Source: Devosia insulae DS-56
GTDB taxonomy: Bacteria > Pseudomonadota > Alphaproteobacteria > Rhizobiales > Devosiaceae
Reading direction: 5' to 3'
NCBI RefSeq assembly: GCF_000970465.2
Contig: NZ_LAJE02000272.1
Coordinates: forward strand, 1 to 36,753
Length of the DNA: 36,753 nt
Position 1 is the first letter of the stretch; each line of letters opens with the position of its first letter. The translations under genes and the position numbers were made by a program. The notes under the pieces are model-generated. The model saw nothing but the letters and a program-made list of their open reading frames with translations, was not told the origin of the DNA and did not search any database. Shown here in pieces: positions 12,471 through 31,117 of the stretch.

Positions 12471-12474
12471 AGCT

Positions 12475-13770: not shown

Positions 13771-13812
13771 GGTGCCTCGTTCGAACCGGCACCGTGGGCG
13801 CCGGACGTTTGG

Positions 13813-13833: not shown

Positions 13834-13844
13834 GTCCCGTCGCC

Positions 13845-15616: not shown

Positions 15617-15648
15617 CCTTTGTACATCTGTGCCATGGCGTACAAAGG
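15617..15648. promoter_or_regulatory. Inverted repeat, candidate operator or RNA stem
   Basis: CCTTTGTAC (15617-15625) and GTACAAAGG (15640-15648) are a perfect 9-base inverted pair with a 14-base spacer. It lies about 410 bases upstream of the DUF2092 gene. Confidence 0.4.
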
Positions 15649-16050: not shown

Positions 16051-16067
16051 CGTACAATCACTGTACG
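16051..16067. promoter_or_regulatory. Short inverted repeat CGTACA-N5-TGTACG
   Basis: Two 6-base arms with a 5-base spacer lie about 235 bases upstream of the outer membrane protein gene. The half site CACTGTACG also appears at about 15559-15567, and ACTGTACG occurs in the palindrome at 11657. A shared regulator is possible. Confidence 0.3.
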
Positions 16068-16299
16068 GTTACGCACCAACAAGTGGTCAATGTTCAGATA
16101 ATGCTTTATTCTTTCTTGGAGATGGGAAGGTAACACCGGTCTGTATTGTTGACATTGCGGATGAAGCACGGCTGACTTGCGAACAGCAAAAGGTGCGGGG
16201 GTGGCCAGGATGAGTCCCGGATACGAGCGTGTTGCATCTGGAAAGCAGCGCGAGTGCCCTTCCAGCAGGGCCGGACGTCACTCAGCGGACAGAGCCATC

Positions 16300-17082
16300 A
16301 TGCGGTGCCTTAGCCCCCTCGCCGTCTGCGCTCTCTGCGGCCTCCCGGCCGCCGCTTTGGCTCAAAACGCCGACGAGATGGCCAAGCAGTTGTCCAATCC
16401 GGCGGCACCGGTGACCTCGATCCCGTTCGTGTTCGATTTCGACCACGGTGCTGGGCCCGACGGCGATGGCCTGAGCTACACCCTCAAGGCTCAGCCGGTG
16501 ATCCCCTTCCAGCTCAACGCCGATTTCAACGTCATCTCCCGCACCATCGCGCCGCTGGTGTTCCAGACCGATATCTATCCCGATGACGTATTCGGCCTCG
16601 GCGACGTCACCCAGAGCTTCTTCATCACCCCGGCCAAGCCCGGCCAGCTGGTCTGGGGCATCGGCCCGGCTTTCCTCCTCCCCACCGCCACCGACGATCG
16701 ACTCGGCACCGGCAAGTTCGGCGTCGGCCCGACTGGCCTGCTGCTCTACGGCATGGGCAAGGTGAGCATCGGCGTGTTGGCGACACAGATCTGGTCGGTT
16801 GCCGGTGACCCGGACCGCGCCGATGTCAGCCTCCTACAGCTGCAGCCGTTCATCAACTATGCCCTCGGCGACGGCCAGACGCTCTCGGCCAACCTCGAGA
16901 GCAGCTACGACTGGATCGGCGAGCAATGGACCGTGCCGCTGAACCTCAGCTATTCCAAGGTGTTCGAGGCCGGCGGCCAGACCCTGAAGTGGCAGATCGG
17001 CGCCCGCGCCTACCTGGCGGCGCCCGAGGGTGGTCCCGATTGGGGTTTGCGCAGCGGCCTGACCTTCGTCGTGCCACCCTGA
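16300..17082 (+). CDS. Neuromedin-U/transporter-like outer membrane protein
   Basis: A 260-residue exported protein. A signal peptide (cleavage near ALAQ, residue 22) is followed by NADEMAKQLSNPAAPVTSIP, the typical opening of the bacterial proteins annotated as neuromedin U or 'transporter'. Further family blocks are LLPTATDDRLGTGKFGVGPT, ESSYDWIGEQW and GGPDWGLRSGLTFV. The body alternates polar and non-polar residues, as a beta-barrel would. The name reflects annotation history, not a hormone function; an outer membrane channel is the reasonable guess. ATG 16300 is preferred to 16177 because it begins the signal peptide, although its ribosome-binding site is weak. Confidence 0.8.
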   Translation: MRCLSPLAVCALCGLPAAALAQNADEMAKQLSNPAAPVTSIPFVFDFDHGAGPDGDGLSYTLKAQPVIPFQLNADFNVISRTIAPLVFQTDIYPDDVFGLGDVTQSFFITPAKPGQLVWGIGPAFLLPTATDDRLGTGKFGVGPTGLLLYGMGKVSIGVLATQIWSVAGDPDRADVSLLQLQPFINYALGDGQTLSANLESSYDWIGEQWTVPLNLSYSKVFEAGGQTLKWQIGARAYLAAPEGGPDWGLRSGLTFVVPP

Positions 17083-17593
17083 TCGGGATCATCTTCCAAT
17101 GGTGTTGAGGCATGGAGGCTCACCCCTCACCCGTCTCGGCCTTCGGCCGATCCACCCTCTCCCCGACGGGGAGAGGAACAGTGGGTGATCGCGGCACTCT
17201 CCGTTTTCTTCTCCCCGTCGGGTCGCGGGACGAGGGCGTAGCCCTCGCCCGGAGGTGGCGCGTAGCGCCGGATGAGGGGTGAGCCACTGAGGTCCGGCGA
17301 ACGCACGGCTACCTGCGATGCAAACATCGACCTGTAATCGAGTTTTCCGAAACAATTAATTCCGCAGCAACACTCCGCCTAGTTTCAGGTTGAGCGCCGC
17401 CATCCCGCTGCGGATAGTTCGTTCCGGCGCATCTGCGCCTGCTTCACACCTATTGCCGAACCGGTGCCTCGCACCGGACGCCCCTGCCCTGCCGCCGGAG
17501 CTCACGGGCCGACGCTCCCGGTATCACGGCATTTTGCCGTCGGCGATCGCCGACGCGACTGAGGCCGCGCGCCGCGGCGACGAGGAGTGAACC
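17083..17593. other. Intergenic region with a mosaic repeat
   Basis: The first half is a palindromic repeat element (17117-17285). The second half (17286-17593) shows no convincing gene: the + frame at 17390-17590 is Arg/Pro-rich and lacks a ribosome-binding site. GAGGAG at the very end belongs to the HAD phosphatase gene. Confidence 0.5.
17117..17285. repeat. Mosaic palindromic repeat (RIME-like), copy B
   Basis: The ends are a perfect inverted pair, GGCTCACCCCTCA (17117-17129) and TGAGGGGTGAGCC (17273-17285). Inside lie smaller palindromes such as CTCGGCCTTCGGCCGA and CTCTCCCCGACGGGGAGAG. The plan (terminal CCCCTCA boxes with inner CTCCCC/GGGGAG hairpins) is shared with the elements at 19570 and 28817, and resembles rhizobial intergenic mosaic elements (RIME). 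It follows the outer membrane protein gene and may act as its terminator. Confidence 0.65.
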
Positions 17594-18589
17594 ATGCCTG
17601 CCCGGCCCGACCGCTCGACCTTTCGCACCATGCTGGCCGTCTGCGCCATCGCCCTGGTGATCGCTTTCATCTCGTCAACCCTGGTGCTGGCCAAGTCCCC
17701 CGCCCTGCCATCGTGGAACGACACCGCGACGACCACCGCGATCGAGGACTTCGTCACCCGCATCACCACCGAGGGCGGCCCGGACTTCGTGCCGGTCGTC
17801 GACCGCATCGCCGTGTTCGACATGGACGGCACGCTGATCGTCGAAAAGCCGATGCCTGCCGCGCTCGCCCCGATCGTCGACGGCATCAAGGCAGCGGTGG
17901 CGAAAGACCCCTCGATCGCCGAGCGCTCGACCATTGCAGCCTTCCTAAAGGGCGACAGGCAGGCGCTCGCTGCCGCCGGCGAGGCCGGCATGGTCGAGCT
18001 CATCAGCACCGCCATCGCCGGCCGGACGCTCGACGAGGCAGCGGCGGATCTCGGCAATGAGCTGCGCAGCGCCGATGGCAAGCTCGCCGGCGTCAAACCC
18101 TACCAGCCGATGCTCGAGCTGATCGACTATCTCGAGGCCAACGGCTTTACGGTCTGGATCTGCAGCGGCAGCCCCCTGCTGTTCACCCGCAGCTTCTCGG
18201 AACAAGCCTTCGGCATTCCGGTCGAACGCGTCATGGGCACCACCCTGGTGACCAAATTCACTGAGCGCGACGGCAGGAGCCAACTGGTGGTCGGCGACAG
18301 CATCGACCACATCAACGACAAGGAGGGTAAGCCCCCCACCATCAACCAGGCGATCGGCAAGCGGCCGCTGCTGGTTGGCGGCAATGTGCTGAGCGGCGGC
18401 GACATCGCCATGATGCGCTATTCGCGGGATCGCGACGGCCCCAGCCTGCAGCTCCTGATCAACCACGACGATGCGGCGCGCGAGTTCGCCTATGCCGAAC
18501 CCGACAATTTCTCGCTCGGCGCTGCCGAGAAATACGGTTTCCACGTCGTCTCCATGAAGGACGACTGGGCCACGGTGTTCGCGCCCTGA
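17594..18589 (+). CDS. HAD-family phosphatase, exported or membrane-anchored
   Basis: A 331-residue HAD hydrolase. An N-terminal hydrophobic segment (about 13-33) would export or anchor it. Motif I is FDMDGTL with nucleophile Asp76 and Asp78. Motif II is the Ser191 of WICSGSP. The last motif reads GNVLSGGD (263-270), where the paralogue at 25142-26122 has GNSDGD. One of the acidic metal-site residues is therefore missing or shifted. The C-terminal block YGFHVVSMKDDWATVF is shared with that paralogue. The start has GAGGAG upstream. It is followed 33 bases later by an FGE-like gene. The substrate is unknown. Confidence 0.85.
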   Translation: MPARPDRSTFRTMLAVCAIALVIAFISSTLVLAKSPALPSWNDTATTTAIEDFVTRITTEGGPDFVPVVDRIAVFDMDGTLIVEKPMPAALAPIVDGIKAAVAKDPSIAERSTIAAFLKGDRQALAAAGEAGMVELISTAIAGRTLDEAAADLGNELRSADGKLAGVKPYQPMLELIDYLEANGFTVWICSGSPLLFTRSFSEQAFGIPVERVMGTTLVTKFTERDGRSQLVVGDSIDHINDKEGKPPTINQAIGKRPLLVGGNVLSGGDIAMMRYSRDRDGPSLQLLINHDDAAREFAYAEPDNFSLGAAEKYGFHVVSMKDDWATVFAP

Positions 18590-18622
18590 GGCGCGCCGAT
18601 ATCTGGATCAGAGGAGATTTCG

Positions 18623-19519
18623 ATGCTGCTCGATATGTTCCGCCCTGCCCCCGAGCTGCCGATCAACCCGGTGCCGACAGACATGCGCTTCGTCGCCGGC
18701 GGCAGCTTCAGCATGGGTGCTGACAACTTCTATCCAGAAGAAGCGCCGCGGCGAGCGGTGTCGGTCGGCGATTTCTGGATCGACACCACGCCGGTGACCA
18801 ATATCGACTTCGAAGCCTTCGTCGACGCCACCGGCTACGAAACCACCGCCGAGCGCAGCCGGCGTGGCTCGCTGGTGTTCGAGGCGCCGGGACCGGAGAT
18901 CGATTTGCGGCAATGGGGCACCTGGTGGCGGCAGGTGCCGGAGGCCGACTGGCGGCATCCGCACGGCGCCGGCAGCGACCTCGAAGGCCGCCTGGAGCAC
19001 CCGGTGGTGCACGTCTCGTATGAAGACGCGCTGGCCTACGCCACGTGGTGCCAGAAGGCGCTGCCGACCGAGGCCGAATGGGAGGTCGCGGCGCGCGGCG
19101 GCCTCGAGGGCACCGACTATGCCTGGGGGAACGAGCTGACGCCGCGTGGCCGCCAGATGGCCAATGTCTGGCAGGGCGCCTTCCCCTACGAGAACCTGGT
19201 CGAGGACGGCTATCCCGGCACCTCGCCGGTGCGCAGCTTCCCGCCCAATGGCTACGGCCTCTACGACATGATCGGCAATGTCTGGGAATGGACGGCCGAC
19301 CCCTGGCTGGAGGCGAGCGACAGCAGCGAGCCGATGGATTGCTGCGCCCCGCTCAACCCACGGCTCGGCGCCGCGCCTGCCATCCGCCGCGTGCTGAAGG
19401 GCGGATCGCACCTGTGCGCCCGCAACCTCAACCACCGCTACCGCCCGGCACCGCGGCAACCGGAACTGGCCAACCACACCACAAACGATATTGGCTTCAG
19501 GTGTGTGTATCGGGTGTGA
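18623..19519 (+). CDS. FGE/SUMF1-family protein lacking one active-site cysteine
   Basis: A 298-residue protein of the formylglycine-generating-enzyme sulfatase fold, without a signal peptide. Family blocks are FVAGGSFSMGADNFYPEEAP (23-42), LPTEAEWEVAARGG (147-160), NGYGLYDMIGNVWEWT (209-224) and the end GFRCVYRV. True FGEs use a copper-binding Cys pair (human Cys336 and Cys341) in GGSxxC-x4-C. Here the block is KGGSHLCARNLNHRYR: Cys265 is present but position 270 is Asn. It does keep the DCCAP motif (239-243) seen in mycobacterial FGEs. Canonical oxidation of a sulfatase cysteine is therefore doubtful. A helper or regulatory role like that of SUMF2, or another C-H oxidation, is possible. AGAGGAG precedes the ATG. 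Confidence 0.85.
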   Translation: MLLDMFRPAPELPINPVPTDMRFVAGGSFSMGADNFYPEEAPRRAVSVGDFWIDTTPVTNIDFEAFVDATGYETTAERSRRGSLVFEAPGPEIDLRQWGTWWRQVPEADWRHPHGAGSDLEGRLEHPVVHVSYEDALAYATWCQKALPTEAEWEVAARGGLEGTDYAWGNELTPRGRQMANVWQGAFPYENLVEDGYPGTSPVRSFPPNGYGLYDMIGNVWEWTADPWLEASDSSEPMDCCAPLNPRLGAAPAIRRVLKGGSHLCARNLNHRYRPAPRQPELANHTTNDIGFRCVYRV

Positions 19520-19569
19520 GGGCCCGACCGACTGATACTGCTGGCACCGCTGCCCGATGTGATCGCCGT

Positions 19570-19716
19570 CTCCCCTTGTGGGAGAAGGTGGCCGAAGGCC
19601 GGATGAGGGGTCCCGCGGCCGTTTGGGTGCGCGATGGGAGCGAAGCGACGAGCGACGAAGTACGCGGAGAGATACCCCTCATCCGCCCCTTCGGGCACCT
19701 TCTCCCACAAGGGGAG
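19570..19716. repeat. Mosaic palindromic repeat (RIME-like), copy C
   Basis: The two ends (19570-19611 and 19674-19716) are nearly perfect inverted copies of about 42 bases, each with the CTCCCCTTGTGGGAGAAGG hairpin and the GGATGAGGGGT box. About 60 bases of unique sequence lie between. The element fills the gap between two convergent FGE-like genes, so it can terminate both. Confidence 0.75.
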
Positions 19717-19765
19717 AAGGCACTCCGCCTTGCGTCCGGTGGCCCGGAAGGACCGCCGCCCTCCC

Positions 19766-20728
19766 TCAACCAGGAGTGGCACGCACAATCAACCGAAACC
19801 CCAGATGCGAGATCGAGGTGTCCACCGGCTGCGCCATGCGCGCGGCGGGGCGGTAGCGCCGGCAATAGTTCAGTGCGCAGAGGTGCGAGCCGCCTTTGGT
19901 CACCTTGCGCGGAATCCGTACCCCCGGCTGGCGCACATCGAAGCTGGCTTCGCGCGAAGCGCCGGTCGGGTTGATGGCGAGGTGCGCGTCGCGGTGCGCG
20001 GCGTACCAGTCGGCGGTCCACTGCCAGACATTGCCGGCCATGTCGTAGAGCCCAAAACCGTTGGGCGGAAAGCTCTCGACCGGCGCGGTGCCTTCAAAGC
20101 CGTCATCAGCGCTGTTGAGATAGGGGAAATCCCCCTGCCAGGTATTGGCCATGTGCTGCCCGCCAGGGGTCAGCTCGTCGCCCCAGGCATACTCGGCCTT
20201 TTCGAGCCCGCCGCGCGCCGCGAACTCCCACTCCGCCTCGGTGGGCAGCTGCTTGCCGACCCAGCCGGCATACGCCTCGACGTCCTCGAGCGCCACGTGC
20301 ACCACCGGATGCTCGCCGAGCTCGGCGATGCCGGTCTGTGGCCCGCCCGGGTGTCGCCAGTCGGCGCCGCGCACATAGCTCCACCAATTGTAATGGTTGC
20401 GCATGTCGACCGGCCCGAGCGGCCGGCTGAACACCGTCGAGGATGGCCGCAGCAGCTCCGGTAAGGCGCCCGGATAGTCCTCGGGATTGGCCGGCCGCTC
20501 GGCCAGCGTCACGTAGCCGGTGGCGGCGACGAAGGCCGCGAACTCGGCATTGGTGACGGTGTGGCGATCCATCCAGAAGCCGTTGACCCTGGCGCGATGC
20601 GCCGGCGCCTCCTCCGGGTAATGCGCGTCCGATCCCATGCTGAACGTGCCGCCAGGGATCCAGACCATCGCCTCATCCGGCGCCGGATTGGCATTGGCGG
20701 CACGCTCTCTGGTGTCGAAAAAACTCAT
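19766..20728 (-). CDS. Formylglycine-generating enzyme (FGE), intact active-site cysteines
   Basis: A protein of about 320 residues that should oxidise the active-site cysteine of type I sulfatases to formylglycine, with oxygen and copper, in the cytoplasm. Blocks are MVWIPGGTFSMGSDAHYPEE, ADWRHPGGP, LPTEAEWEFAARGGLEKAEY and NGFGLYDMAGNVWQWTADWY. The active-site block is GGSHLCALNYCRRYRPAAR, with Cys284 and Cys289 (counting from ATG 20728) at the human Cys336/Cys341 positions. It lacks the CCAP motif present in the paralogue at 18623. ATG 20728 is preferred to GTG 20737 because GAGG is well spaced only for it. It is the last gene of the sulfatase cluster, just after the DUF202 gene. Confidence 0.88.
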   Translation of the reverse strand: MSFFDTRERAANANPAPDEAMVWIPGGTFSMGSDAHYPEEAPAHRARVNGFWMDRHTVTNAEFAAFVAATGYVTLAERPANPEDYPGALPELLRPSSTVFSRPLGPVDMRNHYNWWSYVRGADWRHPGGPQTGIAELGEHPVVHVALEDVEAYAGWVGKQLPTEAEWEFAARGGLEKAEYAWGDELTPGGQHMANTWQGDFPYLNSADDGFEGTAPVESFPPNGFGLYDMAGNVWQWTADWYAAHRDAHLAINPTGASREASFDVRQPGVRIPRKVTKGGSHLCALNYCRRYRPAARMAQPVDTSISHLGFRLIVRATPG

Positions 20729-20738
20729 GTCGCTCACC

Positions 20739-21392
20739 TCAGAAGAACGGGCCGATGTGGAAGATCATGCTGGTGGCGGCAAACACGCCGATCGCCAGCA
20801 GCACGAAGGCGGTGACCAGCGTAAACGACACCGGGAACCGGCTCTGCGCGTGGATCAGCCCTTCGGCATGCATGTCCTCGCGCTCATGGCGCAGCCCGAG
20901 CATGAACTGGATGTGGTAGATGATGCCGATCACCAGCATGACGATGCCGAGCCCGACCAGGGTGATGCCGAAATTGCTGGCGGCGTGCTCGCCGACATTG
21001 ATCACCTTCGATTCCCTGAGGCCCCGGATCAGCTGGAAGATGGTGAAGCCGAAGCTGATCAGCGACAGCGCCGTGCGGATCACGCTCATCAGGGTGCGCT
21101 CGGCGCTCATCCTGGTGCGCTGGAACGACATGCCGGTCCGCCGCATCGACATCTCGGTGCGCTCGGTGGACAGGTCGGTGCGATGGGCCGACAGGTCCGT
21201 CCGATACTCCGACAGCGAGGTGCGGTGCTCGGAGAGCCCGGTGCGATGATTGCTGAGGCCGGTGCGGTAGTGCGAATACTCAGTCGAGGCTTGCTCGGGA
21301 TTACTCCGGTCGACCTCGGGGAGCGGCGGCACCGCAGCCTCGGCAAGGCGCGGCGGCCGAACCGGATCGGTTGTTTGCAGAAGCTTGTCCAT
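20739..21392 (-). CDS. DUF202 membrane protein with ten seven-residue repeats
   Basis: A protein of about 217 residues. After a Pro-rich start, a 7-residue unit (two variable residues, then RT-x-L/M-S) repeats ten times over 70 residues: HYRTGLS, NHRTGLS, EHRTSLS, EYRTDLS, AHRTDLS, TERTEMS, MRRTGMS, FQRTRMS, AERTLMS and VIRTALS. The last two units are the standard opening of the DUF202 domain (ERTxxxxxRTALxLIxFGF). Three membrane segments follow (about 103-120, 138-158 and 185-212). The repeat should form a long basic helix on the cytoplasmic side. The function of DUF202 is unknown. ATG 21392 is chosen over GTG 21404 because GAGG lies six bases ahead of it. Confidence 0.82.
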   Translation of the reverse strand: MDKLLQTTDPVRPPRLAEAAVPPLPEVDRSNPEQASTEYSHYRTGLSNHRTGLSEHRTSLSEYRTDLSAHRTDLSTERTEMSMRRTGMSFQRTRMSAERTLMSVIRTALSLISFGFTIFQLIRGLRESKVINVGEHAASNFGITLVGLGIVMLVIGIIYHIQFMLGLRHEREDMHAEGLIHAQSRFPVSFTLVTAFVLLAIGVFAATSMIFHIGPFF

Positions 21393-21528
21393 CGGAATCC
21401 TCACTGCGGCGCCAGCGGCGCGTCCGAAATGGCGCCGCCCGGCGGATCGGCTGCCGAGCGGCTCAAGTGAGGCCCGCCGAGTATCGCGGGACGCTGTTCC
21501 GTTTTGATGAAGCCGATCGGCCGCAGTC

Positions 21529-22416
21529 TTATCTAATTGGCGGCGAATGCGGCTTAACCGGCGGCTTGTGCGGCGCTTCCGGCATCAGGTGCATCCACTT
21601 GAGATAGGGGGCGGAAAGCACCACCCCGACCAGCAGATGCCAGATCACTACCGCCGCCACCGGCGCAACATGCTCGGTGTTGACCGCCGCCACCGCGATG
21701 GCGACGCCGGGGTGGCGCGATGCCGTCGCCAGCGCCAGCACCACCTGGTCATGCGGGTTGGGGCCACCCAGGACATGGCCTACGGCGAGGCCGACCAGGG
21801 CGAACAGCACCAGGATCACCAGCGTGCCGTTGCCCACCATCGACCACACCAGACCCCACTCCATCACCAGCACCGGCAGGATGCTGACCACCAGCAGGCC
21901 CATGCCGAGCAGCGAGGCCGGCCGCATGATGCGGCTGGCGAGCGAGGGAAACAGATCATGCAGGATCATGCCCACGATCAACGGCAGGGTAACCGTCAGC
22001 GCCAGCATCATGGCGATGCGCGGAATATCGGCATCGATGTGCTCGATCGCCTCGATCGACCAGATGCCCAACGGCACCGTGATGATCGAAAGGATCGCCG
22101 TGGTCACCAGCAGCGACACCACGTAAGGCGCGGTGCCGCCACCCTTGGTCTGCGTACTGGGGAGGAACGGCGGCACCGGCGACAGCGACAGCGCAACGAT
22201 GGCGAGCTCGATTGCCGGGTGGAGCTGGAACAGCACCACCAGCAGCAGCGCGAACACCGGCATGACGATGTTCATCGATAACAGCGAGCGCAGCAGCAGG
22301 CCGGGGCGGCGGATCAGGTAGGCCGCGTCGTTGAGACTCGCCCCCAGCCCGAGCCCGAAGACGATCAGCGCGATACTGAGGTTGATGGCGATTGGCAGCA
22401 GGCTGGCGATACTCAT
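21529..22416 (-). CDS. BASS-family (bile acid:sodium symporter-like) transporter
   Basis: An inner-membrane carrier of about 295 residues with nine or ten membrane helices and a Pro-rich tail. Family features are LSPVPPFLPSTQTKGGG in the first half and ATASRHPGVAIAVAAVN in the second, close to the crossover helices that bind sodium. Members import bile acids, pyruvate, pantoate and, in animals (SLC10A6), sulfated steroids. In this operon it sits directly after a sulfatase gene whose product stays in the cytoplasm, so import of a sulfated organic anion is a reasonable inference. ATG 22416 has GGGAGG upstream; TTG 22431 is less likely. Confidence 0.85.
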   Translation of the reverse strand: MSIASLLPIAINLSIALIVFGLGLGASLNDAAYLIRRPGLLLRSLLSMNIVMPVFALLLVVLFQLHPAIELAIVALSLSPVPPFLPSTQTKGGGTAPYVVSLLVTTAILSIITVPLGIWSIEAIEHIDADIPRIAMMLALTVTLPLIVGMILHDLFPSLASRIMRPASLLGMGLLVVSILPVLVMEWGLVWSMVGNGTLVILVLFALVGLAVGHVLGGPNPHDQVVLALATASRHPGVAIAVAAVNTEHVAPVAAVVIWHLLVGVVLSAPYLKWMHLMPEAPHKPPVKPHSPPIR

Positions 22417-22427
22417 GATGGCCTCCC

Positions 22428-24746
22428 TCAATCTCTGGCGATGGCGGCGGCGAGGTGCGCCTCGACGTCGACATAGGCGTCGTCCCCGACATCGAAGACG
22501 ACGCGCGACAACGTGCCGTCGCTGAAATCGAACCCCGGCTCGTATTCACCCGAGACCACATCGCCGCTGTCATAGCCGATGCAGAGCCCCTCGCCGGTGA
22601 TGGCGAAGTGGCCGGTCATGGTGCGGATTTCGCTCTCGGCCACCACCTTGTCGTCGATATAGAGCCGCGCCGGCCCATACGACTCCTGGTAGCTGCCGGT
22701 GCGCTGCTTGGTGAACTCCACCCCCACCACATGCTCGCCGGCCTTCGGCGCATCGCCGATCAGCTTCTGCTCGGGCGCGATGCCGAGGAAGTTGTAGGTG
22801 TAGAAGAGCTTGCCGTTCTTGACGAACAGCGAGTGGCCGCCGAAGCGCGAGCCATGCGCGAAGATCACTCCCTTGGTCCTGGGCGTGAACTCCACATCGG
22901 CCAGCACCTTGAACGATACGCCATGCGTATTGGCGGCCGAATGCTCCGGGATCTCGCTGGTGCCTGGGTAATAGACGAACTGCCCGCTCGGCGGCACCGG
23001 CGGCTTGAACTCCATCTTCAACAGCCCCATCACGCCGAGGTCGGACAGCGGCAGCACGTTGAACTTCTTCGCCTCTTCCATCCACAGGGCGACAAGTTTC
23101 TGCAGCCGGTCCGGATACTGCTCGGCGAGATCACGGGATTCCGAGCGGTCGACTTCGGTGTGGAACAGCTGCCAGCGGTCCTTGTCGAAATGTCCGAGAT
23201 CGGTGAACGGCCCGTGCTCGGTCACCGCCTTCCAGCCGCGGTGCCAGATGCCGCGGGTGCCCAGCATCTCGTAATACTGCGTCTCCTTGCGACTGGGCGC
23301 ATGCGGCTGGTCGAAGCTGTAGCGCATCGAGACGCCGGACAGCGGCACCTGCTCGTAGCCATCCACCACCTTGGGGAAGCTCACCCCGCAGCAATCGAGA
23401 ATGGTCGGCACGATGTCCGTGCAGTGGTGGTACTGGGTGCGCACTTCGCCCCGCGCCTTGATGCCCCTGGGCCACGAGATCACCAGTGGATCGGCAACGC
23501 CGCCCTGGTACGAGTAGCGCTTGAACATGCGGAACGGCGTCGAGAACGCCGCCGCCCAGCCGGTCGGATAGTGGTTGTAGGTTTCCGGCGAGCCGAGCTT
23601 GTCGATCATCGCGAGATTCTGCTCGATATCATCGGGGTAGCCGTTGGCGAACTTGCCCTCGTTCACCGAGCCGTTCGGCGAGCCTTCGCCCGAAGCACCG
23701 TTATCGGCACAGTAGATCACCAGCGTATTGTCGAGCTGGCCGGACTCCTCGAGATAGTCGACGATCCGCCCGATCTCGGTGTCGGTATACTCCGAGAACG
23801 CGGCATAGACCTCGGCCATGCGCGAGAACAGCCGCTTCTCATCGGGCGACAGCGTCTCCCACGGCCGCACCGCGTCTGCCTCGGTGAAGCTGCCCTCGGC
23901 CATCGGGTTGAGCGGCGTGAGCTCGGTCCCCTTGGGGAGGATCCCCGCCTTGATCATCCGCGTCAGCGCCCACTCGCGATAGGCCTCGTAGCCATCGTCG
24001 AACTTGCCGCGGTATTTGTCGATGAATGCCTTGGGGGCGTGGTGCGGCGCATGATTGGCGCCCGGACAGAACCACAAGTACCAGGGCTTGTCCGGCTCGG
24101 TCTGCTTGCTGTCGCGGATGAACTCCAGCGCCTTGTCGGCGAGATCCCTGGACAGGTGGTAGCCCTCTTCGGGCGAGTAGGGCTGGGCGATGTAGTGGTT
24201 GTCCTCGACGAGATCGGGATACCAGTTATTGGTTTCTCCGCCGACGAAGCCGTAGTAGCGGTCATAGCCCTGCCCCAGCGGCCAGCGCTTCTTCGACGAT
24301 CCCATGGTCCATTCGTCGACCGGGATATTGTGGTTCTTGCCCACCCAGAAGGTCGACCAGCCCGCCTCCCGCAGCACCGTCGCCATCGAGGCGCATTCGG
24401 GCGGGATGTGCGAGCTGTAGCCGGGAAAGCCGCTCGCTGCCTCCGAGATGGTGGCAAAGCCGTTCTGGTGGTGGTTGCGCCCGGTCAGGAAGCACGAGCG
24501 GGTCGGCGAACACAGCGCCGTGGTGTGCCACTGCGAGTAGCGCAGGCCGCGATCGGCCAGCCGCTGCAGCGTCGGCATCTCGATCCGTCCGCCGAACGGT
24601 TCCCAGGCCGCGAGCCCGGTATCGTCATAGAGGATGACCAGCACGTTAGGCGCGCCCTCCGGCGCCTTCCGCGCGCGGAACGGCGTCCAGTCGGGCTTGG
24701 AGTCTCTTATGTCGAGGCTGATCTTGCCTTTGAACGTCGTCGTCAT
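22428..24746 (-). CDS. Arylsulfatase, type I (CSPTR motif)
   Basis: A 772-residue sulfatase that hydrolyses sulfate esters. Metal-binding Asp41-Asp42 are in LYDDTG. The formylglycine site is CSPTRSCFLTGR with Cys79 as the residue to be converted. GKNH, ADNGASGEGS and later His/Lys motifs complete the alkaline-phosphatase-like core. After about residue 560 comes a beta-rich C-terminal part, as in the long AtsA/PAS-like class. The N-terminus (MTTTFKGKISLDIRDSK) has no signal peptide, so the enzyme is probably cytoplasmic, unlike many secreted sulfatases. AAGGAG precedes the ATG, which overlaps the DUF1622 stop by four bases. The substrate is unknown. Confidence 0.93.
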   Translation of the reverse strand: MTTTFKGKISLDIRDSKPDWTPFRARKAPEGAPNVLVILYDDTGLAAWEPFGGRIEMPTLQRLADRGLRYSQWHTTALCSPTRSCFLTGRNHHQNGFATISEAASGFPGYSSHIPPECASMATVLREAGWSTFWVGKNHNIPVDEWTMGSSKKRWPLGQGYDRYYGFVGGETNNWYPDLVEDNHYIAQPYSPEEGYHLSRDLADKALEFIRDSKQTEPDKPWYLWFCPGANHAPHHAPKAFIDKYRGKFDDGYEAYREWALTRMIKAGILPKGTELTPLNPMAEGSFTEADAVRPWETLSPDEKRLFSRMAEVYAAFSEYTDTEIGRIVDYLEESGQLDNTLVIYCADNGASGEGSPNGSVNEGKFANGYPDDIEQNLAMIDKLGSPETYNHYPTGWAAAFSTPFRMFKRYSYQGGVADPLVISWPRGIKARGEVRTQYHHCTDIVPTILDCCGVSFPKVVDGYEQVPLSGVSMRYSFDQPHAPSRKETQYYEMLGTRGIWHRGWKAVTEHGPFTDLGHFDKDRWQLFHTEVDRSESRDLAEQYPDRLQKLVALWMEEAKKFNVLPLSDLGVMGLLKMEFKPPVPPSGQFVYYPGTSEIPEHSAANTHGVSFKVLADVEFTPRTKGVIFAHGSRFGGHSLFVKNGKLFYTYNFLGIAPEQKLIGDAPKAGEHVVGVEFTKQRTGSYQESYGPARLYIDDKVVAESEIRTMTGHFAITGEGLCIGYDSGDVVSGEYEPGFDFSDGTLSRVVFDVGDDAYVDVEAHLAAAIARD

Positions 24747-25129
24747 GGCCTGCTCCTTGGCTCCGTGATTTCAGGCCCCGTCGTCTCCTCGCGGCGCTTC
24801 TCGTCCATTTCCGAGATGTCGCGCTCGAGGAAGAAATTGAGGAAGGTGCGGATGGCGGCGATCGCCGCCAACTGGCCGATATCGTCCCAGCTCGGCGCCG
24901 CCGAGGTTTCGATGATGTCGGCAGCCAGCTGGAAGGTGAGGCCGGCGACCAGCCAGCGCGAATAGTGCATCCAGATCGCCCGGATGCTGCCGTCGCGCCG
25001 CCGCCACACGATCGTGGCGAGCGCGCCGATGACGGCTTCGAGGGTACCGGCAACGATCACCGCCAAGGCGATGAGGTTGATCAGCGGTACCACCACTTCG
25101 GTCAGTCGAATGAGCCATTCGTCGAGCAT
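24743..25129 (-). CDS. DUF1622 small membrane protein
   Basis: A 128-residue inner-membrane protein. Two or three hydrophobic segments are visible (about 12-35, 58-72 and 84-96), followed by a charged tail with ERDISEMDEKRREE. The block WLVAGLTFQLAADIIETS and the following AAIRTFLNFFLERDI are typical of the DUF1622 family. Its function is not known. The gene overlaps the following sulfatase gene by four bases (ATGA) and lies 12 bases after the HAD gene, so it belongs to the operon. GGGAGG is the ribosome-binding site. Confidence 0.82.
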   Translation of the reverse strand: MLDEWLIRLTEVVVPLINLIALAVIVAGTLEAVIGALATIVWRRRDGSIRAIWMHYSRWLVAGLTFQLAADIIETSAAPSWDDIGQLAAIAAIRTFLNFFLERDISEMDEKRREETTGPEITEPRSRP

Positions 25130-25141
25130 TTCCGCCTCCCT

Positions 25142-26122
25142 TCACGCCGCCGATGCCGTGGCATCGGGCACAAACACCGTGCGCCAGTCGTTCTTCATAC
25201 TGACCACGGTGATCCCGTATTCAGCGGCATGGTCGAGCGCCTCGGCCAGCGGGCTCAGATGGAACTCGCGGTCATAGGCGAACTCGCGCGCCGCATCGTC
25301 GTGGTGCAGCAGCAGTCCGAGCCGCGGGCCGTCGCCGGTCAGCGTGTAGCGCAGCATGGCGAGGTCGCCGTCGGAATTGCCGAAAGCGAAGATCGGTCGC
25401 CGACCGATATGGAGGCCGATATTGTGGGCCTTCACTTCGCGGTCGTCGAAGCTGTCGATCTCGGCTTGCTTGACCAGCACCCCCACCCCGTCGCGCAGCT
25501 CGAAGCGGGTCTTGACGCTCGAGCCCACCACCTGCTCGGGCGGGATGCCGTAGGCGTCCTCGGCCAAAGCCCGCACCAGATCGATGCCGCCGCCGGTGAC
25601 GATGAAGGTCTTGAAGCCGTTGGTGCGCAGGTATTCGAGCAGCTCGACCTGTGGTTCATAGGTGAGATCGATGAAGCGTCGGCCGAGCTTTGGGTGGCGC
25701 GCGCCGGCGAGGAAACTCCGCGCTTCGGCATCAAACTCATCTTCGGTATTGCCGGCAAAGGCCGTCGCGCCGACCTCGAACAGGCCTTGCTTGCCCATCT
25801 GCTTGATCGCGGCGATGTCGCGCTCCAGGTAGGCCTTGTACGGCTGCTGCTGCTTCAGGTCCGCATCCTTGCGGACCAGCGCCTCGAGCCGTTGATGCCC
25901 GAAATAGAACTGCACCTGCAGCGGCTGTTCGCACCAGAGCGTGCCGTCATTGTCGAAGGTGGCGATGCGGCGCGCCCGCGGCAGGAAGTCGGGGCCGGGT
26001 GTGGTGACGCGCTGCACGAAATCGAGGATCGCCGCCTTGGCGGGGCCATCGCTCCATGAGGGCAGCGGCGTGGTGCTGACGGCGCTGTGGTCACCACCAG
26101 GTGAAAGATCGTCGCGTTGCAT
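25142..26122 (-). CDS. HAD-family phosphatase, cytoplasmic paralogue
   Basis: A 326-residue HAD hydrolase without a signal peptide. Motif I is FDNDGTL with nucleophile Asp57 and Asp59. Motif II is Thr176 in FIVTGGG. The metal motif FGNSDGDLAML (247-257) is intact, unlike in the exported paralogue at 17594. Shared blocks (LPSW at the start, HHDDAAREFAYDREF and YGITVVSMKNDWRTVF at the end) show that the two are homologous over their length. The layout is phosphoserine-phosphatase-like, but the substrate is unknown. The start ATG has AAGGA nine bases ahead. It lies between the two sulfatase genes and is probably co-transcribed with them. Confidence 0.87.
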   Translation of the reverse strand: MQRDDLSPGGDHSAVSTTPLPSWSDGPAKAAILDFVQRVTTPGPDFLPRARRIATFDNDGTLWCEQPLQVQFYFGHQRLEALVRKDADLKQQQPYKAYLERDIAAIKQMGKQGLFEVGATAFAGNTEDEFDAEARSFLAGARHPKLGRRFIDLTYEPQVELLEYLRTNGFKTFIVTGGGIDLVRALAEDAYGIPPEQVVGSSVKTRFELRDGVGVLVKQAEIDSFDDREVKAHNIGLHIGRRPIFAFGNSDGDLAMLRYTLTGDGPRLGLLLHHDDAAREFAYDREFHLSPLAEALDHAAEYGITVVSMKNDWRTVFVPDATASAA

Positions 26123-26211
26123 CGGACAGCATCCTTGAGTTCAGCGATGTGCCCTGGTCTGCCGGACGGGAGCCATGCCCTCGCCCGGCTGTTCGTGACG
26201 CTCGGCCGGCG

Positions 26212-27759
26212 TCAGTGTCCGGCGCCGCCTGAGACTTCGCTCATCTTCGAGATCGCGTCGTCGATGGTGAAGCTGTTGGGGTGCTGGATCGGCGGGAAGT
26301 CCTTGAACGTATCGGCGAACTTGCCGGCGATCACCTGAGCCGCGAAGATGATGTAGTCGTGGTAGAGGAACCACTCGTAATAGGTGTTCGAGGTCACGTC
26401 CGCGAACTCGTACGGGTCGGTTCTCAGGTTGAACAGCTTGGGCAGCCGCAGTCGTACGAACGGCTCGGCCCAAACGCCCATCGTCCCCTTGAGCCGCTGC
26501 TCCATGAAGACAACCTTCCAGTTGTCGTAACGAATGCCCAGGATGTCGCCGTCGTCGCTGATATAGACGAACAGCGGCCGCGGACTCTCCTTCTCCTTGC
26601 CGGTGATGTAACCGACGAGGCTCACCCCATCGATGTGGTTCTTGTAGGTCCGTCCATTCGCCTTGTAGCCCGTCTTGAGCTTGTCGACGACGGTGGTGTC
26701 GCCCGCCATCTCGAGGAAGGTCGGTAGCCAGTCGTGGTGCTGCACGATGCCGGTGGCGACTGAACCGGCCTTGATCTTGCCGGGCCAACGCGCCAGCAGC
26801 GGCACGCGGAACGCGCCTTCCCAGTTGGTGTTCTTCTCCGAGCGGAACGGCGTCATGCCGCCATCCGGCCAGGAATTCCGGTGCGGCCCATTATCGGTCG
26901 AGTACTGCACGAAGGTATTCTCGGCGATGCCGAGTTCATCGAGCAGGTCGAGCATCTGGCCGACATTCTTGTCGTGGTCGATCATCGTGTCGTGATAGGG
27001 CGATTGCCAGCGGCCGGCCTGGCCGAGGCTGGCTTTCTTGGTGTGAGTGAACATGTGCATGTGTGTGGTGTTGAGCCACACGAACCAGGGCTTGCCGGCC
27101 TTCTCTGCCCGCTTGATGAAGTCGGTCGCTGCCGCCACGAACTCGTCGTCGCAGGTTTCCATGCGCTGCTTGGTCAGCGGCCCGGTATCCTCGATCTTCT
27201 GCCTGCCGATCTTGCCCCAGCGTTCCTCGACCGTGGGGTCGTCGTTGTCGGTCGCCCAGGAATGCACCACGCCGCGTGGGCCGAGGTTCTTCCTGAAATC
27301 CGGAAAATCCTTCTCCGGCGGGTAGTCGTACATCTCCGGCTCTTCCTCGGCATTGAGGTGGTAGAGGTTGCCGAAGAACTCGTCGAACCCATGGTTGGTG
27401 GGCAGCATGTGATTGAGATCGCCCAGGTGGTTCTTGCCGAACTGCCCGGTGGCATAGCCCTGCTCGCGGAGCAGCGCCGCCGAAGTAACGATCTTCTCGT
27501 TCATGCCGATCGGCGACGCCGGGGCGCCGACCTTGCTGAGGCCGGTGCGCAGGACGCTCTGTCCGGTGATGAACGACGAGCGCCCGGCGGTGCAGCTCTG
27601 CTCGCCATAGCTGTCGGTGAACAGCATGCCTTCCTTGGCGATGCGATCGATATTGGGCGTCTGGTAGCCCATCAAACCGTGCGTGTAACAGCTGAGGTTC
27701 GATTGGCCGATATCATCGCCCCAGATGACGAGGATGTTCGGCTGCTTGCTCTTGGCCAT
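26212..27759 (-). CDS. Arylsulfatase, type I (CTAGR motif)
   Basis: A 515-residue sulfatase. Metal-binding Asp15-Asp16 are in WGDDIG, and the formylglycine site is CTAGRSSFITGQ with Cys56. Ala replaces the more common Pro at the third motif position, which the C/S-x-P/A-x-R consensus allows. Further motifs are GKNHLGD, THMHMFTH and STDNGPHRNSWPDGG with the metal-binding Asp-Asn. The C-terminal half contains the usual small second domain. There is no signal peptide (MAKSKQPNILVIW), so it is probably cytoplasmic. GGAG lies seven bases before the ATG. It is the first gene of the - strand sulfatase cluster, followed by a HAD phosphatase after about 90 bases. Confidence 0.93.
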   Translation of the reverse strand: MAKSKQPNILVIWGDDIGQSNLSCYTHGLMGYQTPNIDRIAKEGMLFTDSYGEQSCTAGRSSFITGQSVLRTGLSKVGAPASPIGMNEKIVTSAALLREQGYATGQFGKNHLGDLNHMLPTNHGFDEFFGNLYHLNAEEEPEMYDYPPEKDFPDFRKNLGPRGVVHSWATDNDDPTVEERWGKIGRQKIEDTGPLTKQRMETCDDEFVAAATDFIKRAEKAGKPWFVWLNTTHMHMFTHTKKASLGQAGRWQSPYHDTMIDHDKNVGQMLDLLDELGIAENTFVQYSTDNGPHRNSWPDGGMTPFRSEKNTNWEGAFRVPLLARWPGKIKAGSVATGIVQHHDWLPTFLEMAGDTTVVDKLKTGYKANGRTYKNHIDGVSLVGYITGKEKESPRPLFVYISDDGDILGIRYDNWKVVFMEQRLKGTMGVWAEPFVRLRLPKLFNLRTDPYEFADVTSNTYYEWFLYHDYIIFAAQVIAGKFADTFKDFPPIQHPNSFTIDDAISKMSEVSGGAGH

Positions 27760-27943
27760 CGTTCTACTCCGTTGGCAGATAGGCGTGGCGACGGGAGGCC
27801 GATCCGGAAGCGGGCGGCCGGTGGGAAGTCATGGTGACGGGAGGCGCGTTAACCGTGTCGGACGACAAATCCGGCCGCTGCCATGGAGTGGCCGCACGCC
27901 ATCGCAATAGTGAACGAAATGCTAACAGCGACCGGAGTCTATT

Positions 27944-28162
27944 ATGCTGCTTGATGAAACCAATGGTGGCGGGGGCCATCAGGGACCTTGGTGCCCATCG
28001 TGCAAACAGCCGATCCTTGAGGGCCAGAAGACCCTGCAGGTGATATTCAACGACGACCCGCACGGGTTCCGGGGCAGCACCGGCGTCTACCACGCCCAAT
28101 GCGGCAAGGTGTTCGCCTCCCTCGCTCGCGTCATGAACCTCAACCCCTGGGCGGGACGCTAA
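27944..28162 (+). CDS. Small zinc-knuckle-like protein
   Basis: A 72-residue protein with CPSC (Cys17, Cys20) and HAQC (His50, Cys53), a likely CCHC zinc site. The blocks DDPHGFRGSTGVYHAQCGK and FASLARVMNLNPW look like a conserved small family found in Hyphomicrobiales, as far as I can tell from memory. There is no signal peptide. ATG 27944 has GGAG eight bases ahead. The gene is divergent from the sulfatase cluster. Its function is unknown; small CCHC proteins can be regulators or adaptors. Confidence 0.7.
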   Translation: MLLDETNGGGGHQGPWCPSCKQPILEGQKTLQVIFNDDPHGFRGSTGVYHAQCGKVFASLARVMNLNPWAGR

Positions 28163-28206
28163 GTACAGCGCCTCGCGGAAGTTGGGAGCACCGCAGAACG
28201 GGCACA

Positions 28207-28371
28207 TCAGCGCTGCCTGCGGACGGGAATGGTGCGATAGCTCAGCGCGCGGGCGCCGAACAGCTCGGCGCGCATGTCGGGAATGCCGGCCCAGACGCGG
28301 GTTGAACGCGCCGGTGCGCGATCGGGCTTCGAGCCCCGGATCGCGGCGGTGAGAATTCCGTGCAGGAACAT
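28207..28371 (-). CDS. Possible small protein of 54 residues
   Basis: The - strand frame starts MFLHGILTAAIRGSKPDR and ends in an Arg-rich tail (IPVRRQR). AGGA lies nine bases before the ATG. It has no signal peptide, no recognisable domain and high Arg content. It lies between the zinc-knuckle gene and another small - strand gene. Support is limited to the start signal and an open frame; it could be spurious. Confidence 0.4.
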   Translation of the reverse strand: MFLHGILTAAIRGSKPDRAPARSTRVWAGIPDMRAELFGARALSYRTIPVRRQR

Positions 28372-28435
28372 GATCGTTGGTCCTCAGGGTGCCGGTGTGA
28401 GGCCGGCGCTATGCGGGATGCCCTGTGGATGCGTC

Positions 28436-28642
28436 TCAACGCGGCGCGATACTCGCCGCGATGCTGGGGCAGTGGGCTGCCGTGTGGTCGGCGGTGCAGG
28501 CCTGAGCCGGCGCTTGGGCGACGTGCGGCGCGGCCGGAAGGCTCAGCACCACAGCTGCCGTCAGCAGCCCGATGCGACCGAACGCCGACACGGTGGAAAC
28601 GCGGGATTGTCCCGGCGCCAGGCGATCGCGTGAAACGGACAT
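28436..28642 (-). CDS. Small exported protein of 68 residues
   Basis: From ATG 28642 (GAGG six bases ahead) the frame encodes a basic N-terminal region, a hydrophobic core (IGLLTAAVVLSLPAAP), a likely cleavage site near AQA, and a mature part of only about 20 residues with two cysteines. It could be a tiny secreted peptide with a disulfide, or a chance frame. An upstream start at 28705 would hide the signal peptide and is not supported. It reads in the same direction as the small frame at 28207. Confidence 0.45.
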   Translation of the reverse strand: MSVSRDRLAPGQSRVSTVSAFGRIGLLTAAVVLSLPAAPHVAQAPAQACTADHTAAHCPSIAASIAPR

Positions 28643-28990
28643 GGAAACCTCACTCAACAGCTCGAGCCACGCGTGAGGCGGGCGGGCAGTGATGGGGTGA
28701 GGCAAAGGCGAGACTGGACGCCAGAGCTTGCCGAACCCTCACGGCGCCCAAGGGCATTCGATTTGATTTAGCGGCTAAGGCGAGGGGGCTCATGGCCCTC
28801 GCAGTCGGGCGATTTCCCTTCTCCCCTCAGGGGAGAAGGTGGCCGAAGGCCGGTTGAGGGGTGAGGCGGCACAGCGAGCGCTCGCTGAGAAGCTGAACCC
28901 CTCACCCTAGTTCCGCTACGGACCTGACGGTCCTAGCTGCACTAGCCCTCTCCCCTCAGGGGAGAGGGGCCGCCGACTGCCAGTCCGGTG
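28643..28990. other. Intergenic region with a mosaic repeat
   Basis: Apart from the repeat element at 28817-28969 I see only about 170 bases of ordinary DNA, probably the promoter region of the small exported protein gene on the - strand. Confidence 0.5.
28817..28969. repeat. Mosaic palindromic repeat (RIME-like), copy D
   Basis: Each end carries a strong hairpin: CTTCTCCCC-TCA-GGGGAGAAG on the left and CCCTCTCCCC-TCA-GGGGAGAGGG (28946-28968) on the right. The left end continues with the GGTGGCCGAAGGCCGG block shared with copy C and the TTGAGGGGTGAG box. The middle differs from copy C. It lies just after the pbpC stop and probably ends that transcript. Confidence 0.7.
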
Positions 28991-31117
28991 TTAGTCCAAA
29001 AACACCTTCACCGTGTCCGAGCGACCCTCGGCGTCCACCACCGACAGCGTCACGAACCCCGGGCCATCCGGCCGCCAGCTGTTCTGGCGGGCGAAAGCGG
29101 AACGCCCGAACGGCGCGCCGTTGGCGAAGAAGGTGAAGGGCGGCACGCCGTTGCGCACCTTGACGATCAGCGGCGCCTCGTTGCCCGAGGCGAGGCCCAG
29201 GTCGACATCGACACCATCGCTCGGATAGGCGATCTGCGGCGCCGCATCGCGCTTCACCTTCTGCTCGTCGGGATGGCGGAAACGGCGCAGCGGCAGTGGC
29301 AGCTCGGAGTTGGAGGCAAAGATCGTCCCCGGCGGCGCGTCGCGCAGCGGCACGGTCTTCTCGGCCAGCCGGTCAAAGCTCTCGAACAGGATCGGCGCCG
29401 CGGCGCCTATGCCGGTAATGCCGGGGATCTGCGAGTTATCGGGCCGGCCGACCCACACCCCGATCACGGTCTTGCCATCAAAGCCGATGGCCCAGGCATC
29501 GCGATAGCCGTAGGACGTTCCGGTCTTGTAGGCGATGCGTCCGGCCGAGCCGTTGAGCGGCGGCGGCACATCGGCAAGGATGTTCCCGACATACCAGGCA
29601 GCGATCGGATCGAGCACCGGGGCGGGCGTCTCGGTTTCCTCCGCCACCGGCTTTACCCCGTCGCGAAGCACCACCGGCGAACCGCCCCGGCCAATCGCCG
29701 CGTAAATCGAAACGAGGTCGCGCAGCGTCACGCCGACGCCACCAAGGCCGACCGCGAGGCTGGGCGCCGTATCGGCCGGCAGTCGCGCCGCGGCATGCGC
29801 CCGCTTGATCCGCGCCACCAGCCGCGCCGGGCCGACGGCATCGAGCACCACCACGGCTGGAATATTCAGCGACTCCGTCAGCGCCTGCCGGATCGAGACC
29901 GTGCCACGGTTGAAGCCGTCGAAATTGACCGGCACATAGCCGTTGAAGGCGGTCGGCCGGTCCTCGATCAGGCTCTCGGGATGTGCCATCCCCAGCTCGA
30001 AGGCGAGCCCGTAGATCAACGGCTTCAGCGTCGAGCCGGGCGAGCGCACTGCCTCGGTCATATCGACATAGCCGTCGCTGTCGGCATTGAAGAGCCCGGC
30101 CGAACCCACCGAGGCGAGGATGTTGCCGGTCTGCTGGTCGGCGACGACGATTGCCACCGAGAGCTTCGAGCCGAGCTGCGCCGCGCGATCGGCGCCGAGC
30201 CGCTCGAGCTTGGCCTGCAGCTTCCGCTCGATGGTCAGTTCGATCTTCCGGGCGTTCGGATGCGCCTTCACCGCCGCCTCGGCGAGATGCGCCGCATACA
30301 TCGGGAAATCCCGCCGCGCCTTCGGCATCGGTTCGAGCTTGGCGGCTTCGGCTTCCTCGGCGCTGATCACCCTGGCCCCGACCATACGGTCGAGCACCAG
30401 GTTGCGCGCCGCCCGCGCCACTTCGATGTCGCGGTCCGGCCGCCGCGCCTCGGGCGATTGCGGCAGCGCCACCAAGAGCGCGCATTCCGCCGTGGTCAGC
30501 CGCCCCGGCTCCTTGCCGAAATAGGCAAGGCTCGCGGCACGGATGCCCTCGATATTGCCGCCATAGGGGGCAAGGGTCAGGTAGAGCGTCAGGATTTCGT
30601 CTTTGCCGAGGGAGTGCTCCAGCGCATCGGCATGCACCATCTGGCGCAGCTTGCCGGCAATATTGCGCGTCGGCTCGCCGCCGATCAGCCGCGCCACCTG
30701 CATGGTGAGGGTCGAGCCGCCCGAGACGATCCGCCCTGCCCCGGCATATTGCACCGCGGCGCGCAGCATCGAGGGCCAGTCGATGCCGTGATGCTCGTTG
30801 AAATGCTGGTCCTCATAGGCGAGCAGCATGTCGATGAAGCGCCGGTCGACCTCTTCGATCGTCACCGGCAGGCGCCAGCGCCCATTGGCCGTGGTGAACG
30901 GCCGCAGCAGCAGCCCGGCATTGTCGACCACGGCGGTCGATACCGGCACCGCCGACACCACCGGAGTGGGCGGCAGCGTGGCGCGGATATCGCGCAGCAC
31001 GGCGAGCCCATACTGGCTGCCGACCAGCGCCACGCCAGCGAGGACGATCAGCGTCGCAGTAAAGAGCCCCGGCGCGCGTCGGCGCCGGGGCTCAGGTTTA
31101 TCCGCGGCCGTGCTCAT
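28991..31117 (-). CDS. pbpC: Penicillin-binding protein 1C
   Basis: A bifunctional peptidoglycan synthase of 708 residues anchored in the inner membrane by a segment at about 18-40. The glycosyltransferase 51 domain has YEDQHFNEHHGID with catalytic Glu102 and GGSTLTMQVARL. The transpeptidase domain has STLK with catalytic Ser362, SLN (416-418) and KTGTS (531-535). A C-terminal PBP1C-type beta domain (about 625-708) ends the protein. PBP1C is usually dispensable and is thought to act in wall repair. The ATG overlaps the stop of the alpha-2-macroglobulin gene (ATGA), so the two are translationally coupled. This pairing is known from E. coli (yfhM-pbpC) and many other proteobacteria. Confidence 0.95.
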   Translation of the reverse strand: MSTAADKPEPRRRRAPGLFTATLIVLAGVALVGSQYGLAVLRDIRATLPPTPVVSAVPVSTAVVDNAGLLLRPFTTANGRWRLPVTIEEVDRRFIDMLLAYEDQHFNEHHGIDWPSMLRAAVQYAGAGRIVSGGSTLTMQVARLIGGEPTRNIAGKLRQMVHADALEHSLGKDEILTLYLTLAPYGGNIEGIRAASLAYFGKEPGRLTTAECALLVALPQSPEARRPDRDIEVARAARNLVLDRMVGARVISAEEAEAAKLEPMPKARRDFPMYAAHLAEAAVKAHPNARKIELTIERKLQAKLERLGADRAAQLGSKLSVAIVVADQQTGNILASVGSAGLFNADSDGYVDMTEAVRSPGSTLKPLIYGLAFELGMAHPESLIEDRPTAFNGYVPVNFDGFNRGTVSIRQALTESLNIPAVVVLDAVGPARLVARIKRAHAAARLPADTAPSLAVGLGGVGVTLRDLVSIYAAIGRGGSPVVLRDGVKPVAEETETPAPVLDPIAAWYVGNILADVPPPLNGSAGRIAYKTGTSYGYRDAWAIGFDGKTVIGVWVGRPDNSQIPGITGIGAAAPILFESFDRLAEKTVPLRDAPPGTIFASNSELPLPLRRFRHPDEQKVKRDAAPQIAYPSDGVDVDLGLASGNEAPLIVKVRNGVPPFTFFANGAPFGRSAFARQNSWRPDGPGFVTLSVVDAEGRSDTVKVFLD

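Follow-up and report, generated by a model that had tools for sequence, protein, structure and literature searches.

A probable self-maturing sulfatase locus on a genomic island of Devosia insulae DS-56, with a SulB-HAD-FGE core that recurs across bacterial phyla

The locus described here lies in a 36,753-bp stretch of contig NZ_LAJE02000272.1 of Devosia insulae DS-56 (the whole stretch analysed, hereafter the window) and combines two sulfatases with two formylglycine-generating enzyme (FGE) homologs, two haloacid dehalogenase (HAD) phosphatases, a BASS-family carrier and proteins of the DUF202 and DUF1622 families. Among its closest described counterparts are those in sulfatase maturation and in the polyphosphate channel. 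In the available part of one account (PMC7279497), two cysteines bind copper(I) in bacterial FGE, and the human FGE paralogue pFGE binds sulfatases but is not catalytic. For bacterial proteins whose FGE domain lacks the catalytic cysteines, the accessible portion of the report on the OCTIN superfamily describes N-terminal extensions (PMC5915273). For the yeast VTC complex, the accessible sections of PMC9911596 describe a channel lined by five first helices; by our own computation of the spacing, basic residues on these helices lie seven apart (K24/R31 in Vtc1, K622/R629 in Vtc4, K698/R705 in Vtc3), others four apart. A diatom Vtc1 is annotated as DUF202 in the available part of PMC7283521. On balance, we favour the view that the Devosia locus sits on a horizontally transferred island and serves self-matured, cytosolic hydrolysis of sulfate esters, and it is best read as a transferable SulB-HAD-FGE core with frequent DUF202 and DUF1622 partners.

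Seven genes are packed on the minus strand, in the order SulB (a type I sulfatase of 515 residues; 26212..27759), HAD2 (a phosphatase with a fold like that of phosphorylcholine phosphatase, PchP; 25142..26122), DUF1622 (a small membrane protein; 24743..25129), SulA (a type I sulfatase of 772 residues with an extra C-terminal region; 22428..24746), the BASS carrier (21529..22431), DUF202 (20739..21404) and FGE2 (19766..20737). SulA/DUF1622 and BASS/SulA overlap by 4 bp each, and the intergenic gaps measure 1 bp (FGE2-DUF202), 12 bp (HAD2-DUF1622), 89 bp (SulB-HAD2) and 124 bp (DUF202-BASS). Two plus-strand genes, HAD1 (17594..18589) and FGE1 (18623..19519), point toward this cluster. All nine proteins scored above Pfam cut-offs, as HAD (twice; PF12710 in HAD2), FGE-sulfatase (twice; PF03781 with 280 bits in FGE2), DUF202 (PF02656), SBF (PF01758 with 51 bits in the BASS carrier), Sulfatase (twice; PF00884) and DUF1622 (PF07784). 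The coordinates, strands and families that a first-pass annotation had given for the nine genes, and the orientation of the plus-strand pair toward the minus-strand cluster, were borne out. PADLOC matched none of the nine proteins, and a defence system was rejected.

Building on the observed gene content, motifs, conservation, island boundaries and the difference in predicted export within HAD pairs, we propose an activity for the locus together with protein locations, transport and a substrate class. FGE2 would act in the cytosol, turning the active-site cysteine of SulA (CSPTR) and SulB (CTAGR) into formylglycine, and the sulfatases, once folded, would stay in that compartment. Small sulfated organic anions may enter via inner-membrane partners, namely the BASS carrier and possibly DUF202 or DUF1622, and would then be desulfated to sulfate and a carbon skeleton. 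The PchP-like HADs, one exported-looking and one cytosolic, might dephosphorylate the same compound class or metabolite on both sides of the membrane. In favour of this reading we count the Pfam matches and active-site conservation, the cysteines of FGE2, the co-distribution of FGE and sulfatases, the neighbourhood counts, a SulB clade without signal peptides, a SulB tree that mixes phyla and an empty site in related genomes. If it holds, the locus would represent a widely shared, transferable sulfatase module with little-studied partners, among them a phosphatase able to occupy two compartments and a repeat-bearing relative of the polyphosphate-channel domain family, and it would offer a testable function for this DUF202 type and for the HAD family of the solved but functionally unassigned structure 4ovy.

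SulB is the conserved anchor of the locus. Its CTAGR site is present in 107 of 108 SulB-family open reading frames (ORFs), the remaining one not covering the site, and the D-D, C, R, K, H, D-N and K motif residues of the family are 99-100% conserved. In the type I sulfatase domain, SulA and SulB score 211 and 158 bits, the Pfam cut-off being 25, and both carry the C-x-[PA]-x-R site, with metal ligands aligned for the SulB family only. A sulfatase like this, which has CxAxR rather than CxPxR and hardly varies between phyla, may suit FGE engineering. The closest solved relatives of SulA are the arylsulfatases 4cxk/1hdh, which we take to be AtsA of Pseudomonas aeruginosa; SulA shares their Sulfatase domain and C-x-[PA]-x-R site but is longer by ~200 C-terminal residues, and to our knowledge a HAD/DUF202 setting is not part of the described AtsA locus.

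As had been claimed in the first-pass annotation, no signal peptide was visible in either sulfatase or either FGE, and a hydrophobicity test flagged 0 of 58 FGE rows. The same heuristic marked 15 of 111 SulB-family rows as signal-bearing: L089, where the ORF start was probably set too early, one far relative (L042, 108 bits) and 13 more distant relatives in L040-L051. A signal-less SulB clade thus stands apart from its exported relatives. By eye, twin-arginine-like starts were seen in exported SulB relatives (L046, L049) and in exported HADs (L057, L061, L067, L102).

When aligned to human FGE, FGE2 looks canonical, with both copper-binding cysteines (LCALNYC), and shares the fold of FGE/SUMF1, whereas FGE1, a single-domain homolog, keeps the first but lacks the second catalytic, copper-binding cysteine (LCARNLN; cysteine roles as given in the accessible part of PMC7279497). 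The idea that the locus encodes its own maturation enzyme finds support in FGE2 but not in FGE1. Both cysteines are found in 56 of 57 FGE ORFs from other loci, the exception (L099) looking frame-shifted, and in all 29 loci of the best-matching genomes of the order. Among 86 FGE rows, with L099's FGE and duplicates of the window's ORFs left out, FGE1 has the most deviations, at 10 of 93 conserved columns, followed by rows with five. Six of its ten deviating columns fall within residues 269-289, where the cysteine is missing. A decayed gene is not favoured, given a full-length ORF with 83 of the 93 conserved columns intact, and a close FGE1 orthologue suited to a selection test was not found in the loci and genomes compared. 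FGE1 resembles pFGE/SUMF2, as far as the latter is covered by the available text of PMC7279497, in its FGE domain, its broken copper site and the sulfatases encoded alongside, but it is bacterial and retains one cysteine. Like the cysteine-less OCTIN-superfamily proteins it has lost a catalytic cysteine, yet differs from them, as portrayed in the accessible part of PMC5915273, in being single-domain, in keeping one cysteine and in residing in a sulfatase cluster. Judged by these motifs, FGE1 is a candidate pFGE-like protein, or pseudo-FGE, and may represent a natural regulatory FGE in bacteria.

The only two FGE matches in the D. insulae assembly (100% complete by the tool's figure) are those in the window, next to six sulfatase-family matches in the assembly; of the four sulfatases that lie outside the window, those on contigs C34 and C363 are SulB-like and keep the CTAGR site. 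Across 19 genomes of the genus, FGE was found in three; sulfatase matches number 6, 8 and 12 in these and 0-4 in the other 16. A ~530-residue sulfatase-family gene at G000:C68:452-1594 (L007) has similar-sized matches in many same-genus genomes without FGE.

To describe the neighbourhood, we used the best 80 of at least 593 SulB loci from a scan of species genomes; at 66-84% identity to SulB, they are labelled as belonging to at least eight bacterial phyla. FGE lay no more than 7 kb from SulB in 55 of the 80 loci, HAD in 53, DUF202 in 40, DUF1622 in 27, BASS in 10 and SulA in seven; HAD and FGE occurred together in 42, and at least one of them in 66. The 17 Actinomycetota loci hold the plain SulB-HAD-FGE set (HAD in 16, FGE in all 17), with no DUF202, DUF1622 or BASS detected in them, and among 50 Pseudomonadota loci DUF202 was present in 32 and DUF1622 in 22. 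In a quick SulB tree, some of whose records come from metagenome bins or seem to be wrongly labelled, phyla are mixed, and the smallest starred set with the window comprises 21 Pseudomonadota, one Bacteroidota, one Nitrososphaerota and two unlabelled sequences. Close SulB loci also appear in a record titled Bacillus subtilis and in a Nitrososphaeraceae archaeon bin (L058, L081), possibly through contamination or misbinning. A conserved neighbourhood, whose absence would have refuted the first-pass annotation, was found: the 80-locus counts exclude that outcome, though within the genus SulB relatives above 60% identity occur in only 2 of 19 genomes (D. insulae itself and G015). Taken with the reverse searches below, the recurrence is well above chance. 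A literature search with most subscription journals outside its scope returned no description of this neighbourhood and no paper joining DUF1622 with a sulfatase, DUF202 with DUF1622, or an FGE-sulfatase operon with a haloacid dehalogenase.

The gene to the right of the cluster, PBP1C, was found in 16 of the 19 genus genomes, and the region beside it was compared by blastn in five of them (G010, G014, G017, G001 and G011). In the first four, the match to the window ends at ~10399 and restarts at 28992, with ~200-450 bp in between; because the window's 10.4-29.0 kb are absent from these four (L206-L209), we regard this segment (10400..28991) as an island. G011, whose PBP1C is 99% identical, keeps 10488-11966 and traces further right but not the sulfatase genes of the window. 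In G015, by comparison, the sulfatase set adjoins PBP1C and includes an extra SulB. DUF1622 and FGE1 were not detected in this sister island, and of HAD1 a remnant of the first 35 codons only, 77% identical, is left in the matching place (L039:17614-17718), which indicates that the plus-strand pair and DUF1622 are dispensable in G015.

Two short repeats were noted in this region. About 110 bp in the DUF202-BASS gap (21428-21538) recur at 76-81% identity beside PBP1C (L205, L206, L207, L209), that is, at three of the four empty junctions and in four of the five same-genus genomes without sulfatase genes; this stretch is either a genus repeat or a remnant. The empty site of G010 additionally holds short repeats, one of which (L206) is matched in both orientations by the window's 19565-19726, between FGE1 and FGE2.

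For the reverse searches we turned to 397 genomes of the order; rows from the contig that holds the window do not enter the near-counts. They bear on a simpler account, which we consider very unlikely, in which the locus is just a sulfatase plus FGE operon, with HAD, DUF202, DUF1622 and BASS as passengers. Such an account would fit the facts that the membrane partners differ from locus to locus, that DUF1622 genes lie mostly elsewhere and that G015 manages without DUF1622, FGE1 and most of HAD1. However, 27 of 100 HAD genes have an FGE no more than 10 kb away, where uniform placement would give ~0.36 pairs, and a search for DUF202 alone gave ten genes in nine genomes, nine of which, the window's included, are beside a sulfatase or FGE. 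Seven of the nine DUF202 genes outside the window are within 6 kb of an FGE, a copy on contig C34 of D. insulae is beside a SulB-like gene, and for the one in G290 no other cluster family was found within ~9 kb. HAD was present in 80 genomes and FGE in 84; 43 genomes have both, an odds ratio of 7.8 without correction for relatedness. Of the 39 other DUF1622 genes, four belong to a SulB/FGE cluster, at 49-57% identity to the window's, but three that are 51-54% identical do not. A fifth gene is ~5 kb from distant sulfatases, and two have a HAD next to them but no sulfatase. We rejected the idea that DUF1622 is dedicated to sulfatases: its co-location is above chance, but most copies are elsewhere.

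Returning to the favoured reading of a self-maturing cytosolic locus, its two phosphatases differ in ways that speak against the mirrored HAD-FGE sets of the first-pass annotation being equals. HAD1 has a hydrophobic, signal-like N-terminus, as of an exported or membrane-anchored protein, and an altered motif IV (GNVLSGGD), whereas the N-terminus of HAD2 is not of this kind. HAD1 and HAD2 are 43% identical, FGE1 and FGE2 53%; FGE1 misses a copper ligand, and G015 retains no FGE1 and only the 35 codons of HAD1. These identities also led us to reject HAD1/FGE1 as a recent duplicate of HAD2/FGE2. Two HADs occur in eight of the 80 loci and in the window (the two HAD ORFs of L126, pieces of one frame-broken reading, were not counted), and each of the nine cases pairs an exported-looking start with one that is not; three of these loci are from Caulobacter relatives and so are not independent.

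The nucleophile loop of the HAD fold, DxDGT, is present as DNDGT, with D57 and D59 invariant. With an AlphaFold2 model of HAD2 (pLDDT 91.8), Foldseek gave 4ovy as the best match (48% identity), followed by the closest characterised fold, phosphorylcholine phosphatase 4as2 (TM score 0.55), at 17% identity. This likeness, along with HAD copies that look exported on the one hand and cytosolic on the other, would suit a scheme in which the sulfatases and PchP-like HADs jointly scavenge choline-type esters: cleaving the sulfate and phosphate esters of choline, or of an amine alcohol like it, would serve osmoprotection and the supply of nitrogen, sulfur and phosphorus. We deem this unlikely: with 82 and 63 bits, SulB and SulA stay below the choline-sulfatase cut-off of 433, and fold likeness at such identity does not fix the substrate, as phosphoserine phosphatases and nucleotidases match as well.

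The DUF202 protein of the window contains ten uninterrupted Arg-Thr heptads. Among 46 rows, the window included, the longest heptad run is four in 23, 9 to 14 in ten, and two, three, five or six in 13. The repeats look like the beginning of DUF202's own first membrane helix, copied several times. In the AlphaFold2 model (mean pLDDT 85.7), residues 36-131 form a single 96-residue helix, followed by two more helices, and R96, R103 and R110, basic residues seven apart on the first membrane helix, are invariant in 43 DUF202 sequences. The DUF202 domain is shared with the VTC channel, and so is this spacing, as far as the yeast complex is covered by the available text of PMC9911596, but in the window the ladder is extended by repeats to ten, and no polyphosphate polymerase domain was found by Pfam among the nine proteins. 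Neither single-sequence nor profile searches linked DUF202 significantly to solved VTC chains, and the Foldseek list for the DUF202 model had a VTC entry at rank 38, with a non-significant E value of 2.4. The basis of the likeness is therefore the common Pfam family together with the spacing. One may speculate that DUF202 is a VTC-like anion conduit, in which the Arg-Thr heptads (usually four, up to 14 per subunit) would form an arginine ladder into the cytosol that passes sulfated anions to the sulfatases or sulfate from them, and that FGE1 is a bacterial counterpart of pFGE/SUMF2 that would bind sulfatases and tune maturation by FGE2; we regard this combined proposal as decidedly improbable.

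The BASS protein is of a cluster-specific type, in which [SA]P[VMI]PP and RHP were both present in 12 of 15 aligned ORFs, the window's included, those of L074 and L076 and one of two in L112 differing. It matches the bacterial BASS structure 3zuy (E 2.6e-6) and belongs to the same SBF family, but has the conserved RHP, as well as Ala and Arg in place of a Glu and a Gln of 3zuy, which we take to be the sodium ligands of ASBT. With 49 bits it falls below the NCBIfam cut-off of 326 for TIGR00841 and, going by its residues, is not a standard sodium-coupled member. Of the self-contained import-then-desulfate system that had been proposed in the first-pass annotation, the signal-less sulfatases and a maturase in one packed, recurring block held up, but the BASS carrier, with its replaced sodium sites and few SulB neighbours, is not a defining or core part.

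Several points weigh against our favoured reading, that of cytosolic sulfatases matured by the locus itself. BASS accompanies SulB in just the ten loci counted above (12 with the more distant BASS of L074 and L076). In 14 of the 80 loci, HAD and FGE are both missing from the 7-kb surroundings of SulB, and no more than five of these loci are truncated by a contig end. Of the 100 HAD genes in the order, 73 have no FGE within 10 kb, and 34 of the 39 other DUF1622 genes have no sulfatase or FGE of this kind nearby. Export calls throughout are based on hydrophobicity and inspection. Besides, an exported-looking HAD1 and the DUF2092 protein are not explained by a purely cytosolic pathway.

The latter, predicted to be periplasmic (14393..15208, minus strand; PF09865), belongs to a set of extras that recur when the ORFs of 96 sequences (95 loci and the window; L005 and L007 left out) are compared: DUF2092 in 13, the window included, DUF4136 in 12, Omp85-domain barrels in 16, and regulators. 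Together with MetA-type barrels, response regulators and kinases, these families, each named from one exemplar, could point to remodelling of the cell envelope, in which the locus would serve not to feed on small esters but to remove sulfate and phosphate from lipids or glycans of the envelope. We hold this to be improbable, since the close SulB clade and the FGEs have no signal peptides and none of those periplasmic families was found in the 17 Actinomycetota loci.

Two further island genes accompany the sulfatase locus. Adjoining DUF2092 is a Gly/His-rich, exported-looking protein (13845..14396, minus strand) without a Pfam match, noted for its position and, by eye, its C-terminal resemblance; it occupies the same position as family GH17 elsewhere, though outside GH17's blast cluster. 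On the plus strand, 16177..17082 encodes a probable outer-membrane barrel, so called from the neighbours of its relatives, which occur in nine of the 80 SulB loci; this protein had no Pfam hit. To the left, outside the island, the window (631-6416 and 6554-10399) carries genes for a peptide-type ABC transporter, a UxuA-like dehydratase, an epimerase and a GSDH-cytochrome c, a stretch common to all five same-genus genomes compared.

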